64,000 bases of DNA from the NCBI GenBank assembly GCA_036172665.1, contig CM069877.1, forward strand, positions 13,040,501 through 13,104,500, in the 5' to 3' direction. Of the stretch, positions 5,885 through 59,490 are shown piece by piece. The position numbers were made by a program, and so were the translations under genes. The first letter of the stretch is position 1. Every line of letters starts with the position of its first letter. Under the pieces are notes generated by a model, which was given only the letters and a program-made list of their open reading frames with translations, was not told where the DNA came from and did not search any database. This DNA comes from Prosopocoilus inquinatus. Its lineage: Eukaryota; Arthropoda; Insecta; Coleoptera; Lucanidae.

Positions 5885-6412
5885 CAGTGGCGGCGATTCC
5901 GGGGCAATGGCGGGCAATTGCCCCCCCTCCCACCAGATTTCTCAGTATTCAAAAGAAAGGCACTAATGTGCTTAGTTTTAATAAAACATAAGTGTTGTAT
6001 ATGAGAGTTTATTTCAATTCACTGGAAATTGGTTTTCGTTTATTTTTACCTCGAGTAACCAAAACGAGGGAACTGTTTTATTTTGTTAAAACACATGCAA
6101 AAGCAGTACATTGTTGACCATGGGTTGGAAAGCAATAAAGTGTCGCTCAAATAATAGCGTTTAATTTATTTAAAAAACTAAGTGACTATTCCTTCCCATA
6201 ACATCGAAATACATTACAAATTTTGTTGCAAATCGTTTTTGAGGTCAAAAAGCGATCGCAGGATGTCGCTGTTTTATTTGAAATACATTACAATAAGTCA
6301 GGTACGAACCTTTTAAGAATTAATGACGATTGAAGTTTATTGCTGGCGACAGTATATTTTTATTTTCAACACATGCCCCTTTAGTTTTGGCACCCAATCG
6401 CCGGCGCCACTG
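5885..6412. mobile_element. Non-autonomous hAT-like element
   Basis: Ends are CAGTGGCGGCGATT (left) and CAGTGGCGCCGGCGATT (reverse complement of right), typical of hAT termini. The 528-bp interior has no transposase. The flanking 8-mers (TAATCAAC and CTTTCGAC) agree only partly, so the target duplication has decayed. Within it, 6210-6290 contains two short pieces of the 312-bp repeat of 8.7-10.1 kb in opposite orientations. Confidence 0.6.
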
Positions 6413-8534: not shown

Positions 8535-8676
8535 TCTGCTTTCTTTTGCTTAAAATTTTGAATCTGGTTTCGAATAGTTTGAATCTGGATTACGTAGTTG
8601 TTTCAAGAAAACACCTGACTTGAATGTGACAGTTCAGATTTGAATTAACGATTGACAGTTCACCTATAAATATACT
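8535..8676. mobile_element. Truncated copy of the GGTGCTTTCTTTCGCT MITE family
   Basis: Begins CTGCTTTCTTTTGC and follows the family through TTTCGAATAGTTTGAATC and GATTGACAGTTCACC, then stops where the 312-bp array begins. Fuller copies lie at 29003-29294, 29363-29594 and 30912-31138. Confidence 0.6.
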
Positions 8677-8730
8677 TTTTTAGAAAAATTTTGTGCAAAT
8701 CGTTTTTGATTGCAGTGAGAACCTCGAGCA

Positions 8731-8779
8731 GCCTCTGGACAGCTGTTTCAGCCCTGCTTGGGGCTTCTTCAGCCGAAAC
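8731..8779 (-). ncRNA. Hammerhead ribozyme candidate, array unit 1
   Basis: Same layout as 9859-9907 on the minus strand. In this outermost unit one stem I base differs (GTTTCGG rather than GTTTCTG), giving one mismatch in stem I. Expected cut between 8738 and 8737. Confidence 0.65.
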
Positions 8780-9042
8780 GTAGCTCGACATTCCCACTGC
8801 AGACCAAAAACGACTTGCCCAATTTATTCGCAAATGCGATGTAAGAATGATGAACATATAAAATAGCGACATCTTACTATCGCTTTTTGACCTAACATTG
8901 CAGTAGGATAGACAAATTGAAGCGGGATTTGCTCCTAATGAGTCCCCCATGCAAGGCGGCCATGCTTGCTGTCAAAGCATAATGAAAGATTTTAGAAAAA
9001 TTTTGTGCAAATCGTTTTTGATTGCAGTGAGAACCTCGAGCA

Positions 9043-9091
9043 GCCTCTGGACAGCTGTTTCAGCCCTGCTTGGGGCTTCTTCAGCAGAAAC
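9043..9091 (-). ncRNA. Hammerhead ribozyme candidate, array unit 2
   Basis: Identical to the 9859-9907 motif on the minus strand, with stem I fully paired. It lies 312 nt from its neighbours, so a transcript across the array could release exact 312-nt monomers. Confidence 0.72.
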
Positions 9092-9354
9092 GTAGCTCGA
9101 CATTCCCACTGCAGACCAAAAACGACTTGCCCAATTTATTCGCAAATGCGATGTAAGAATGATGAACATATAAAATAGCGACATCTTACTATCGCTTTTT
9201 GACCTAACATTGCAGTAGGATAGACAAATTGAAGCGGGATTTGCTCCTAATGAGTCCCCCATGCAAGGCGGCCATGCTTGCTGTCAAAGCATAATGAAAG
9301 ATTTTAGAAAAATTTTGTGCAAATCGTTTTTGATTGCAGTGAGAACCTCGAGCA

Positions 9355-9403
9355 GCCTCTGGACAGCTGTTTCAGCCCTGCTTGGGGCTTCTTCAGCAGA
9401 AAC
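9355..9403 (-). ncRNA. Hammerhead ribozyme candidate, array unit 3
   Basis: Identical to the unit 2 motif, on the minus strand. Confidence 0.72.
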
Positions 9404-9614
9404 GTAGCTCGACATTCCCACTGCAGACCAAAAACGACTTGCCCAATTTATTCGCAAATGCGATGTAAGAATGATGAACATATAAAATAGCGACATCTTA
9501 CTATCGCTTTTTGACCTAACATTGCAGTAGGATAGACAAATTGAAGCGGGATTTGCTCCTAATGAGTCCCCCATGCAAGGCGGCCATGCTTGCTGTCAAA
9601 GCATAATGAAAAAT

Positions 9615-10097
9615 AATCAAAAACGATTTGCACAAAATTTTTCTAAAATCTTTCATTATGCTTTGACAGCAAGCATGGCCGCCTTGCATGGGGGACTCAT
9701 TAGGAGCAAATCCCGCTTCAATTTGTCTATCCTACTGCAATGTTAGGTCAAAAAGCGATAGTAAGATGTCGCTATTTTATATGTTCATCATTCTTACATC
9801 GCATTTGCGAATAAATTGGGCAAGTCGTTTTTGGTCTGCAGTGGGAATGTCGAGCTACGTTTCTGCTGAAGAAGCCCCAAGCAGGGCTGAAACAGCTGTC
9901 CAGAGGCTGCTCGAGGTTCTCACTGCAATCAAAAACGATTTGCACAAAATTTTTCTAAAATCTTTCATTATGCTTTGACAGCAAGCATGGCCGCCTTGCA
10001 TGGGGGACTCATTAGGAGCAAATCCCGCTTCAATTTGTCTATCCTACTGCAATGTTAGGTCAAAAAGCGATAGTAAGATGTCGCTATTTTATATGTT
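9615..10097 (+). repeat. Inverted part of the 312-bp array, about 1.5 units
   Basis: Reverse-orientation continuation of the repeat with the same 312-bp spacing: TTCTAAAATC occurs at 9641 and 9953. The second unit is cut at 10097, next to the right 12-bp flanking repeat. One complete hammerhead core lies at 9859-9907. Confidence 0.95.
9859..9907 (+). ncRNA. Hammerhead ribozyme (type I, minimal stem III), candidate
   Basis: Stem I is GTTTCTG (9859-9865) with CAGAGGC (9901-9907): seven pairs, two of them G-T. The core is CTGAAGA (9866-9872). Stem II is AGCCC/GGGCT around loop CAAGCA (9873-9888). GAAA is at 9889-9892. Stem III is the zero-loop CAG/CTG at 9893-9898. The cleavage triplet is GTC, cut expected after 9900. 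All conserved core positions are canonical. The only departure is an A-T rather than G-C pair next to the core in stem II. A loop-less stem III should act best as a dimer of neighbouring copies, as proposed for other short-stem-III hammerheads. Read by eye; no folding program was run. Confidence 0.75.
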
Positions 10098-10105
10098 TAT
10101 AAATA

Positions 10106-10665
10106 TACTGTCTATTTCAAAATTAAAAAACCACCACCCGTTCATTTATGTCGCCAAAAAGCAAATTTTCCTAGGTATTCATAATTCACGCTGTTACTGT
10201 GATCTTTACGTGTCTGTCAAAATTTGAATTGTCATATTTCCAATTTGTAAATTGCATCAAATTTTAACGGTGTCGCGAAAACACAGAAACCTTTTAAGCG
10301 CACAAAAGTTCGTTTCAAAGTATATAGTGAAATTGAAAATTGAACGGAGCGACAATTACAGAAAAAGTAGCAGACCTTTTTTTGGTAAGTTTTGTCTTAA
10401 TAATTTATTTCCTTTTCTGTTTCTATATTAAGGTTTGCATCATTGTTTAATCGTTGCTGATAAATTTGTTTGATAATATCTTACGTTAAGCCCCGAATTT
10501 TGAATGTTTTCTCTTTACGCTAATGGTTGTCTTTTTGGCAACTTATAATTGTCGACTTGAAACATGCTTGTCACATAACCTTACATTTCTTCAACAAACT
10601 TGCTTACTGGTTTAGAACTTAACTGAAATTGTCACGTAAATTATGAAACTTTTACTTTTAAATTG
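10106..10665 (+). mobile_element. Copy of the TTTCAAAAT...AAACCACC inverted-repeat element
   Basis: Starts TACTGTCTATTTCAAAATT and follows, in opposite orientation, the sequence of 21908-22520: the CGTGTCTGTCAAAATTTGAA block, the TTAACGGTGTCGCGAAAA block and the CTTACATTTCTTC stretch. The right terminus is not recognisable, so it is truncated there. Confidence 0.6.
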
Positions 10666-40094: not shown

Positions 40095-40860
40095 GGTAGG
40101 TAGGGTAGGAGTCAGTAGAGGTCCGTGAGGAAGGAGTCGGTAGAAGACGGTAGGGCAGGAAACAGTAGGAGTGGAGACTCAATGATAAGTCAGTAGGGGT
40201 CGATAGGTTAGGAGTCACTAAAAGAGTTTACGGAAACTCCAATCCGATTAAACCAAGAAGAACTGTGAAAGAGAACAGACAGAGACTTCGTGCATGTAAG
40301 AGTGAGAAAAATAATGATCAAGTTAATCGGATTGGAGTTTCCGTAAACGCCTTAAGAGTCGGTAGGATAGGAGACAGTAAGGGTCGAAACTCATTGGTAA
40401 GTCAGTACGGGTTGCTAGGGTAGAAATCAGTTGAGGTCGGTAGGTAGGAGTTAGTAGAGGTCGGTAGGGTAAGAGACAGTAGGGGTCCAGACTCAATTAT
40501 AAGTCACTAGGGGTCGGTAGGACAGGAATTTGTAGGAATCATTAGGATAGGAGGCAGTAGAAGTCGAGACCCGTGATACGCCAATAGGGGTCGATAGGGT
40601 AGGGTCAGGTCGAGACTCAATGATAAGTCAGTACGTGTTGGTAGGGTAGAAATCAGTACGGGTCGGTAGGGTAGGTGTCAGTATAGGTCGGTAGGGTAAG
40701 AGATAGGGGTTGAGACTCAATTATAAGCCAGTAGGGGCCGGTAAGACAGAAATCAGTAGGAATCGATAGATTGGAGGCAGCAGGGGTCGAAACTCGGTGG
40801 GAAGTCAATACGTGTCGGTAGGGTAAGAGTCAGTAAGGGTCGAGGCTCAACAGCAAGTAG
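40095..40860. repeat. Degenerate minisatellite
   Basis: G-rich tandem repeat built on GGTAGGGTAGGAGTCAGTAG and GAGACTCAATTATAAGTCAG modules, irregular in order. It lies directly downstream (minus strand) of the last PDE8 exon. A foldback MITE (40226-40348) has inserted into it. Confidence 0.85.
40226..40348. mobile_element. Foldback MITE inside the minisatellite
   Basis: A 25-bp perfect inverted end starting GTTTACGGAAACTCCAATCC, 123 bp overall. Confidence 0.75.
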
Positions 40861-48662: not shown

Positions 48663-49616
<954 letters not shown>

Positions 49617-49753
49617 TGATGATGTAATCATTTGTCATACAATACTTAATTATCTGTTCGCAAATTGTTGGAGAATATTTCAGAACCGGCTTTAGAACTA
49701 AAGTAACAAAAACATTGCGTTAGAAATTCATGTCCCCGAGTACAATACAGGCG

Positions 49754-52071: not shown

Positions 52072-53580
52072 ATTGTTTCTTTCTTGAAGAAATTCGTTTT
52101 CAGCTTTTGAAATTGTCTCCCAGAAATAAAAGGGAGCAAAATGAATTGCGGCTGCGGACTAATAGATGGCGCTACTCTTTTTGCCGCAAAAGTAACTCAT
52201 GACGTCATACTTCTATCCGTCACAGTGATGTAAACAGGGTGAGCTTTAATCTGTTTCCTAAAGCTTCATTTAATTCACTAAAAATGGAATCAATTCTGTG
52301 GTCCTGTTGATCAAATAACGCAAAAATCTGGTTAATATGCCCAATGGAATTTATCACGTGACGTGACGTAACGAGATACGCACCCTCTGCCCCCTAATTA
52401 AGACAACAGTTCAGCTCTACCAACCTTGTTGTGCTCTAAATATTTCTGTCTTCAATTTTATTTATTCGAAATTGTTTTTCGTTTTGCTTGGATTTTCCTA
52501 GCGTTTTTCAGTTTTTTTCAAATTGTTTCCGCGCAAATGAAGGAAACAAAGTTACAGTTCATGGTAACAGATGGCGCCGCAAATGTTCACTGTTTATCAG
52601 AAAAGCTCCTAACAATTAGCACTAAACGAAAGATGTTTTTCAAACGCTTTCTTGAAGAAGAAATTTGTTTTCAGCTGTTTTGAAACTGCCTCCGGGAAAT
52701 CAGGGAACAAAATTAAATGCGTCTGCAGGTCAATAGATGGTGCTAATTATGTTTGTAACTTCTCGTGTTCTAGCCACTTCTATTCAGCTTTGTTTATTCG
52801 AAATTGTTTTTTGTCACGTTTTGTCTTGCATTTTCTTAGAGTTTTTTTAAATTGTTTCTGTGCAAATTAAGGAAACTAACTAAGTTACGGTTCATGGTAA
52901 CAGATGGCGCAACAAATGTTCACCGCTTATCAGAAAAGCTCCTGACAATTACCACTAAACGAAAGATGTTTTTCAAACGCTTTCTTGAAGAAGAAATTTG
53001 TTTTCAGCTGTTTTGAAACCACCTCCTGGAAATCAGGGAACAAAATTAAATGCGTCTGCAGGTCAATAGATGGTGCTAATTATGTTTGTAACTTCACGGG
53101 TTCTAACCACTTCTATTCGGCTTTATTTATTCGAAATTGTTTTTCGTCACGTTTTTTCTTGCATTTTCTTAGCGTTTTTCAAATTGTTTCTGTGCAAATG
53201 AAGGGGTCACATGGTAACAGATAACGCCGCAAATGTTTACCGTTTATCGGAAAAGCTCCTGACGGTTAGCACTAAACGAATGGTGTTTTTCAAACGCTTT
53301 CTTGAAGAAGAAATTTGTTTCCATCTGTTTTGAAACCGCCTCCCGGAAATCAGGGAACGAAATTAAATGCGTCTGCAGGTCAAAAGATGGTGCTAATTAT
53401 GTTTTTAACTTCTCGTGTTCTAACCACTTCTATTAAGCCACATCGTATTCAGCTAAACTTAACTCCAAATATTAAGAAAAAAATTTCAATACATCAAATA
53501 TTTACTAGAAACCAAACCTCTCGTTATTTAAGAAATATCAACCACAGATGTCAATATTGCCAACATTTGGTAAATTTTTT
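52072..53580 (+). repeat. Left satellite array, ~321-333-bp units
   Basis: The block CTTTCTTGAAGAAGAAATTT occurs near 52646, 52979 and 53300, with a diverged unit from 52072 interrupted by a hAT MITE copy. Each unit has TTGTTTTCAGCTGTTTTGAA, GTCTGCAGGTCAATAGATGG and ATTCGAAATTGTTTTTCG. Open frames recur between units and reflect the repeat. Confidence 0.85.
52180..52428 (-). mobile_element. Truncated copy of the 20488-20792 hAT MITE
   Basis: GCAAAAGTAACTCATGACGT to GCTCTACCAACCTTG is the reverse complement of the 20.5-kb copy. Its left end is missing. Confidence 0.75.
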
Positions 53581-57483: not shown

Positions 57484-59490
57484 TTATTTCCGGAAAACAA
57501 TTATTTCAAAACAGGTGGAAAACGCTAACAAGAAACTAGAAAACGAACGATGTTTGTAGCGCCATCTATTAATCCGAACCATAAATTTGTAATTTGCCGG
57601 GATGAGATTCCAAAACAACTGAAAAACATTAGGAACGTTCAAGAACAACGTCCCCAAAAAAAAACTTCGAATAAACAAAACTTTATGCTTAAATTGTTAA
57701 AGCGAAAGAATGAATTACATGCACATGTGGCGCCATCTGCTACCCTGATCCGCAACATTGTACTCTTTATTTATCGGAAAACAATTGAAAAAACTGTTCT
57801 TGAAATGACTTTGAATAAAAGAAGAAAAGAACATTTATGGCGCCACCTGTAACTTAAGAGTTTCTTTTTATTTCAAGGCTAGACTGAAAAATAAATTCAA
57901 AAATTAATTTACAAAAAACACTTTCAACAATAAATATAATAAATAATATTAATTCAACAATAAATACAATAAATAATCGAATCGAACAGAAATGGTTAAA
58001 AGAAGTTTCAAAGGAATTTCAAACACAAGTAGCGCCATCTATTAATCTGCGGCCGCAATTAATTTTTAATTTTGTATCCTCCGATTCCGACAGTTTCAAA
58101 ACTGAGCTGAAAACAAATTTCCAAACGTTCAAGAACAACTTTCTTAAAACAAAACACTGAATAAAGAGGAATATTTGTGGCACCGCCTGTTACCATGAGT
58201 CATAACTGTGGGGGGGGGGAACAATTTTAAGGTTACTGAAAATCGGCAAAAAGATTACGAAATGATTACAAAAAAAAAACAATTTGGAATAAATAAATAA
58301 ATATGAACGGAAGTGGTTAAGAAAAAAAGTTGCAAGGAATTTTTTTAAAGCAAAAAAGCGAAACATTAGCAACGCCATCTATTAATATGTAGTTGCAATT
58401 AGCTTTGTAATTTCCTTTAAATTTTGAAGGACAGTTTCAAAAGAGCTGAAAACGAATTTCAAAACGTTCAGGAACGACGTCCTTAAGACAACTTTGAATA
58501 AAGAAAAAAACATTTGTGGCGCCGCCTGTTAATACGAGTCGTAACTATGTGGAGAAAGAACTTCAAAGTGGTTACTGAAAATCGGCAAAAAATATTTAAG
58601 AAATGATGTTACAAAGAAAAAAAAAGCAATTCCGAATAAATAAAGTTGAACGGAAATGGTTAAAAAAGGAGTTTCAAGGAAATTTAAAACGCAAAAAACG
58701 AAACATAAGCAGCGCTATCTATTAACCTGTAATTGCAACTAATTTTGTAATTCCCTTTAAATTTTGGAGGACAGTTTCAAAAGAGCTGAAAACGAATTTC
58801 AAAACGTTCAGGAACGACGTCCTTAAGACAACTTTGAATAAAGAAAAAGGCATTTGTGGCGCCACCTGTTACCACGAGCCGTAACTATGCGGAGAAAGAA
58901 CTTCAAAGTGGTTACTGAAAATCGGCAAAAAATATTTAAGAAATGATGTTACAAAAAAAAAAGAACAATGCCGAATAAATAAAGTTGAACGGAAATGCTT
59001 AAAAAGAAGTTTCAAGGAAATTTAAAGAGCAAAAAGCGAAATATAAGCAGCGCTATCTATCAACCTGTAGTTACAACTAATTTTGCAATTCCCTTTAAAT
59101 TTTGGAGGACAGTTTCAAAAGAGCTGAAAACGAATTTCAAAACGTTCAAGAACGACGTTCTTAAGACAACTTTGAATAAAGAAAAAAGATTTGTGGCGCC
59201 GCCTGTTAATACGAGTCGTAACTATGTGGAGAAAGAACTTCAAAGTGGTTACTGAAAATCGGCAAAAAAATATTTAAGAAATGATGTTACAAAAAAAAGC
59301 AATTCCGAATAAATAAAGTTGAACGGAAATGCTTAAAGAAAAAGTTTCAAGGAAATTTAAGAAGCAAAAAGCGAAACGTAGGCAGCGCTATCTATTAATC
59401 TGTAGCTGCAATAAATTTTGTAATTCCCTTTAAATTTTGGAAGACAGTTTCAAAACAGCTATAAACAAACCTCTTCAAGAGAGTATTCGA
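57484..59490 (-). repeat. Right satellite array, ~335-341-bp units
   Basis: ACAGTTTCAA recurs at 58090, 58431, 58771, 59109 and 59444, with at least one more diverged unit before. The unit is the reverse complement of the left array unit (GAGCTGAAAACGAATTTC, AGCGCTATCTATTAA). The three most central units are the most alike. Confidence 0.88.

Follow-up and report, generated by a model that had tools for sequence, protein, structure and literature searches.

The window analysed here is a stretch of 64,000 nucleotides from the beetle Prosopocoilus inquinatus (assembly GCA_036172665.1, contig CM069877.1, positions 13,040,501 to 13,104,500), and at 8677-10097 it holds a single insertion built of 312-bp units and flanked by 12-bp target-site duplications, TATAAATATACT, at 8665-8676 and 10098-10109 (plus strand). 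The duplicated sequence matches the window at these two flanking places alone, where 0.03 matches would be expected. From left to right, the insertion comprises one extra T at 8677, recognized by comparison with other units, a first cDNA of 934 bp (8678-9611, RNA sense on the minus strand), an AAT junction of 3 nt that is ambiguous filler (9612-9614), and a second cDNA of 483 bp in inverted orientation (9615-10097, RNA sense on the plus strand), amounting to 2.99 and 1.55 units, respectively. The RNA-sense 3’ ends face outward on both sides, with the outer end of the first cDNA at unit phase 60 (hereafter ‘site A’) and that of the second at unit phase 197 (‘site B’). Tandem Repeats Finder reports a 312-bp period with 99% matches at 8678-9611 and, junction bases aside, a single substitution at 8774 distinguishes the units. 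The first-pass annotation had described the whole stretch as a 312-bp tandem repeat; its unit and position stand, whereas a plain tandem array does not, the second part being inverted relative to 8678-9611 and the whole being bounded by the duplications. At this locus 2.99 units stand in direct tandem, most sampled copies being head-to-head pairs, and LTRs apart from the units are absent from the insert.

As 312 is divisible by three, a sense frame stays open for 103 codons per lap (8663-8971, 8975-9283 and 9287-9595, minus strand). This frame found no homologue (none of five candidates at E up to 1), and we have therefore treated the unit as non-coding; the 312-nt RNA apparently encodes no protein. 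A second, shorter and more diverged insertion lies nearby: 60 bp of a diverged relative at 6220-6279, made of approximately 23 nt antisense from site A followed by approximately 37 nt in sense orientation reaching site B, are enclosed by 14-bp duplications at 6206-6219 (GAAATACATTACAA, plus strand) and 6280-6293 (plus strand).

Several other features share the window. Ty1/copia remnants occupy 322-942 and 1204-2517 on the minus strand, with RVT_2 matched in two ORFs and a copia-type gag in one, these domain matches having been placed on the ORFs from ORF sequence. Tandem repeats of 333 and 340 bp are found at 52510-53438 and 58089-59460, and a search for the hammerhead core found none inside them, while a 224-bp tandem repeat at 40382-40833 is itself composed of shorter 25-bp G-rich units. 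An ORF at 48663-49619 encodes a zinc-finger protein of the C2HC type; most of its named relatives come from beetles, the best being from Nicrophorus vespilloides (47% identity). Weak domain matches to an Na/H exchanger (two ORFs), PAS (one) and DUF4817 (one) perhaps mark exons of host genes or pieces of transposons.

Hammerhead motif and predicted folds

Each complete unit had been said to carry a canonical hammerhead core, and four cores could be located. Three are on the minus strand, at 8746-8772, 9058-9084 (within a type I hammerhead at 9045-9089) and 9370-9396 (within 9357-9401), and the fourth lies on the plus strand in the inverted part, at 9866-9892 (within 9861-9905). A type I descriptor, requiring stem I (5 bp or longer), CUGANGA, stem II, GAAA, a short stem III and UH, matches three of the four and has no match in 200 dinucleotide-shuffled windows; the copy at 8746-8772 is missed because it has lost a pair of stem I to the substitution at 8774. 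Measured from one GUC^CAG to the next, the unit is 312 nt long with a GC content of 43%.

The stem III originally drawn, a CAG/CUG helix with a loop of zero nucleotides, has to be given up, since such a helix cannot form within one molecule. Folded in isolation, the 61-nt motif favors a non-hammerhead structure (-22.5 kcal/mol, versus -16.5 kcal/mol with a 2-bp stem III). The minimum of the two-copy co-fold is a double hammerhead, in which the palindromic ACAGCUGU provides an 8-bp stem III (-48.9 kcal/mol), and any self-cleavage by the hammerhead would most likely occur as a dimer. In the axolotl, hammerheads whose stem III is weak are described as acting as dimers, stem III being palindromic in one family, and the newt and axolotl hammerhead satellites resemble the beetle unit, by description, in their size of approximately 330-350 bp, very short stem III and dimeric hammerhead (PMC7229834, as far as its consulted text goes). 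Covariance models offered no such agreement: Rfam has no match in the window at gathering score, and at E up to 10 the sole hammerhead family at the site is Hammerhead_HH9, which matches three of the four copies and scores 14.5 bits where 52 are required (E = 5); the covariance-model check put forward in the first-pass annotation therefore fails. The best Rfam rows at that threshold are microRNA models, which match the long inverted repeat at the junction and were taken as artefacts of the inversion.

Drawn as a circle, the sense strand is predicted to fold at -112 kcal/mol (z = -7.4 relative to shuffles), and the antisense strand at -86 kcal/mol (z = -3.3). Two pairs of the long stem are changed on both sides among the copies, one at 19/257 (C-G, U-G and U-A) and the other at 22/254 (A-U, G-U and G-C), and the intermediates are G-U, which pairs in the sense RNA only. 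Across the 97 pairs of the predicted rod (9,385 cells), 14 changes affect both sides, 133 one-sided changes keep the pair and 133 break it. Variation among the copies therefore lends modest support to the predicted sense-strand fold. Free variation of the core bases, which the first-pass annotation had named as evidence against a ribozyme, is not what the copies display: 4 of 770 invariant-core cells depart from the core, compared with 3 of 77 cells at N7, which is free to vary (p = 0.02), in a count that omits one of 78 cores (an indel copy) and is a weak test because the search pattern favors young copies.

Genomic copies, fixed ends and target

The motif has 12,813 exact matches in the 650-Mb host assembly and the reversed pattern has none. 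The 312-bp unit has no match in phage records; matches of the pattern in viral contigs (15 stretches) and prokaryote genomes (at least 117) were taken as chance, as a BLAST search of the unit against 132 such loci returned alignments of only 16-41 nt, with a best E of 0.012. For a closer look at the copies, 60 regions containing an intact motif were picked within the initial 5.8 Mb of contig 1 and joined by the two loci of the window, yielding 62 loci, from which 77 chained inserts were scored for target duplications. A score of at least 9 was reached by 53 of these inserts, compared with 1 of 381 mismatched flank pairs. The duplication-confirmed set used below consists of the 60 inserts with a score of at least 7.5, leaving out 17 that fell below and lack a convincing duplication: 11 in single orientation, three head-to-head (L165, L172 and L188) and three nested or complex (L170, L183 and L210). 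L188 is a B/B-like head-to-head pair.

Most confirmed inserts follow one layout. Fifty-six of the 60 are head-to-head, comprising 28 A/B, 27 B/A, one B/B and no A/A, and the remaining four are in single orientation. Were each end chosen independently, A/B combinations would arise half the time, which the observed pairing rejects with p = 8e-16. The duplications are 12 bp long in 35 inserts, 13 bp in 11 and 14 bp in five, with other lengths in nine. Among head-to-head inserts with duplications of 12-14 bp, the first cDNA base falls at unit positions 51-60 for site A (mode 54, 48 ends) and 184-201 for site B (mode 197, 50 ends). Some inserts depart from this layout: the sole duplication-confirmed B/B insertion, L193:1149-1745, has phases 186 and 200 and a 12-bp duplication, and the single-orientation inserts L178:1477-1652 and L179:1458-1618 run from site B (198 and 213) almost exactly to site A (61), as if a cDNA started at A had stopped at B.

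When the flanks of the 29 inserts with exact 12-bp duplications are joined through one copy of the duplication, the target preference is palindromic, AAC followed by 12 AT-rich bp and GTT. The A end lies on the left in 17 of these cases and on the right in 12, and the target therefore does not clearly set the side of A. Microhomology between the presumed primer and the template, counted for ends without extra bases, averages 1.76 nt at A, versus 0.57 nt when permuted (38 ends), and 1.38 nt at B, versus 0.42 nt (45 ends). In the predicted circle, the ten 15-nt windows with the least pairing, which overlap one another, all start at 52-58 or 186-188, so that no stretch of that predicted fold is more unpaired than A and B. 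A+T richness alone could make both sites unpaired as well as good for priming, and since both are A+T rich, folding and base composition make the same prediction there.

Template, inner junctions and a candidate mechanism

If the template were a linear monomer ending at the ribozyme cleavage site, a cDNA started at A could reach 60 nt at most. In the 52 inserts available for this question (the 55 A/B inserts less three with more than two segments), 49 of the A cDNAs are longer than 60 nt and hence cross the cleavage site; the template must therefore have been a circle or a multimer. A cDNA longer than one lap is held by 18 of the 52 inserts, the longest running to approximately three laps. That the 934-nt cDNA measures three laps minus 2 nt had hinted at stops after whole laps, for which no clear excess was found (4 and 2 of 52, with 5.4% expected).

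Between the two templates, we favor the circle on the evidence of the copies, since the sample contains few tandem source copies: among the 100 copies listed, neighbors less than 1 kb apart include 19 minus-then-plus pairs, only five same-strand pairs and no plus-then-minus pair. The competing possibility, a long linear multimer transcribed from a satellite array, would account equally for cDNAs that cross the cleavage site, as any template of more than one unit does, and it fits the cDNA of 2.99 laps in which a single substitution separates the units. With so few same-strand neighbors, we consider it unlikely, though it is the strongest of the alternatives.

The inner junctions behave differently from the outer ends. 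Their positions do not depart significantly from uniform (KS p = 0.14 and 0.17), the lengths of paired cDNAs are uncorrelated (rho = 0.09), and 9 of 52 junctions contain filler. Microhomology of at least 3 nt is present at 27 of 52 junctions, compared with 6% expected, and at 25 of 50 when two mapping overlaps (39 and 62 nt) are set aside. Such junctions recall the twin priming of LINEs, in which a LINE enzyme makes an ordinary target-primed cDNA and, in some cases, the other target strand also primes internally on that RNA, so that its 5’ part becomes inverted. Twin priming leaves an inverted 5’ piece beside a direct 3’ piece, duplications and microhomology at the inversion point, and the head-to-head layout, duplications and microhomology are all found here. 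In LINEs, however, twin priming affects a minority of copies and uses variable sites, whereas in the beetle element the head-to-head layout is the rule (56 of 60 confirmed inserts), the second site is fixed at B, the duplications are mostly 12-13 bp long (46 of 60) and a palindromic target is preferred, making this explanation improbable and weaker than the multimer.

An element moving as DNA, whether a transposon or a foldback, with A and B as its termini, would explain why the outer ends are fixed, the halves inverted and the duplications nearly constant; nevertheless, inner junctions that vary from copy to copy, and insert lengths that span 60 to 1,421 bp and can exceed one lap, are unlike an element of fixed content and render it very improbable. 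Inverted repeats are also a frequent artefact of assembly or of library fold-back, and this origin is the least credible of all given matched duplications at the A and B phases in 55 of 60 places.

We consider it probable that the locus is an animal non-LTR retrozyme carrying a type I hammerhead, and that target-primed reverse transcription inserted it from both ends of one staggered break. The kinship with retrozymes suggested by the first-pass annotation is supported by the abundance of the motif, the target duplications and the cDNAs that pass the cleavage site. Under the proposed mechanism, an endonuclease with a symmetric preference for AAC-12 bp-GTT would leave 3’ overhangs of 12 nt. One overhang would prime at site A (approximately 54-60) and the other at site B (approximately 197), both sites lying in predicted single-stranded loops of the circle, and each cDNA would extend toward the 5’ end of the RNA. 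The A cDNA would usually cross the ribozyme cleavage site, sometimes for more than one lap, and the two cDNA ends would then be joined, often via a few matching bases, with a head-to-head insert of fixed outer ends and variable middle as the outcome.

Penelope-like elements and known retrozymes

The retrozyme encodes no known protein and could be a passenger at most. In the window, 107 of the 128 ORFs with 70 aa or more were scanned; none of them matches GIY-YIG, and RVT_2, next to the copia-type gag, is their sole reverse transcriptase. In the genome, a search for GIY-YIG gave 2,232 candidates; all 150 that were scored exceeded the cut-off, with open frames of up to 788 aa. We take these copies to be Penelope-like, the sole retroelements known to us with that nuclease. 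Their arrangement is again head-to-head, as 46 of 47 neighbor pairs less than 8 kb apart are minus-then-plus and none is plus-then-minus. The two short Penelope copies sampled are inverted pairs of 3’ ends, with duplications of 12 bp (L224) and an ambiguous 12-15 bp (L223); both have an extra tail of approximately 38 nt at one end and a hammerhead core in both halves.

In searches that required GTT, this triplet lay beyond the tailed Penelope end at offsets 8 to 16 in 5, 8, 4, 6, 19, 20, 20, 14 and 4 cases among the 100 listed of 130, a recount from the coordinates of all 100 that follows an early tally on 66 (the first 68 rows less two repeats). The clear rise at offsets 12-15 is what duplications of 12 bp would give if the position of the end shifted by 0-3 nt. 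For GTT outside the shorter end, likewise required in the search, the counts at offsets 9 to 15 are 12, 11, 15, 15, 12, 8 and 5 of 78, which is a weak preference. When all 78 shorter-end matches were compared with 11 hand-picked tailed-end matches lying near, AAC and GTT spaced by 11 or 12 bp were found in three of the nine Penelope copies matched at both ends.

A Penelope-like element is thus a likely supplier of the retrozyme’s enzymes, judging from the copies, the family sampled here being a candidate only. Mobilization by a Penelope-like element, which the first-pass annotation had suggested, gains from the shared head-to-head layout, duplications, unequal ends, hammerhead and GTT; counting against it, sequence similarity is lacking between the retrozyme and the common Penelope family, whose 3’ region gave nothing better than E 0.14. 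More tentatively, and with somewhat less than even confidence, the two ends of one 12-nt staggered break may each catch a dedicated loop of a single RNA circle, starting two cDNAs simultaneously; this may also be the normal route of Penelope, whose tailed and tail-less ends would represent both sites, with retrozymes as its parasites.

Comparison with described elements places the beetle insertions close to a known class. In the consulted text of Cervera and de la Pena (2020), metazoan non-LTR retrozymes have units of 170-400 nt, a type I hammerhead, a GC content under 50%, no LTR and duplications longer than 4 bp, insects in general are named as hosts, and coexisting Penelope elements, which carry hammerheads, are called a strong candidate for mobilization (PMC7229834). 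The beetle element agrees in its 312 nt, type I hammerhead, 43% GC, 12-bp duplications and Penelope elements with hammerheads. In contrast, the retrozymes of that text form tandem arrays, and the head-to-head layout, fixed priming sites, fixed duplication length and palindromic target appear, within its scope, only in the beetle element (PMC7229834). The terms ‘orientation’, ‘beetle’ and ‘Coleoptera’ each occur zero times in the main text of that paper.

Penelope-like elements of Adineta vaga offer a second comparison, being described as head-to-head with inverted pLTRs, an optional 31-bp tail at one end, AT-rich targets, and duplications of 8-10 bp where present and none in some copies, a layout explained by self-priming, perhaps on an antisense template (PMC3846280, consulted text). 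In the beetle retrozyme, by comparison, the two ends begin at distinct fixed sites around a variable middle, a pattern that priming by both target ends fits better. A self-priming model for the beetle element was dropped on the same observations, differing outer ends and variable inner junctions. A retrozyme with target-primed, inverted integration was not found in the literature searched; among the listed matches on retrozymes, hammerheads and circular RNA, in the text consulted, none mentions a head-to-head layout and target-primed reverse transcription appears in PMC10886601 only. Animal retrozymes as such are already published and, to our knowledge and within the literature searched, the integration mode read from the beetle copies is an undescribed variant.

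How retrozymes return to the genome and which enzyme is responsible were left open in the 2020 paper (PMC7229834, consulted text), and the replication cycle of Penelope-like elements has been called unresolved (PMC3846280, consulted text). The fixed A and B ends, near-constant 12-bp duplication and palindromic target of the beetle element make both questions concretely testable, and the copied template usually runs over the ribozyme cleavage site, as a circular intermediate predicts.
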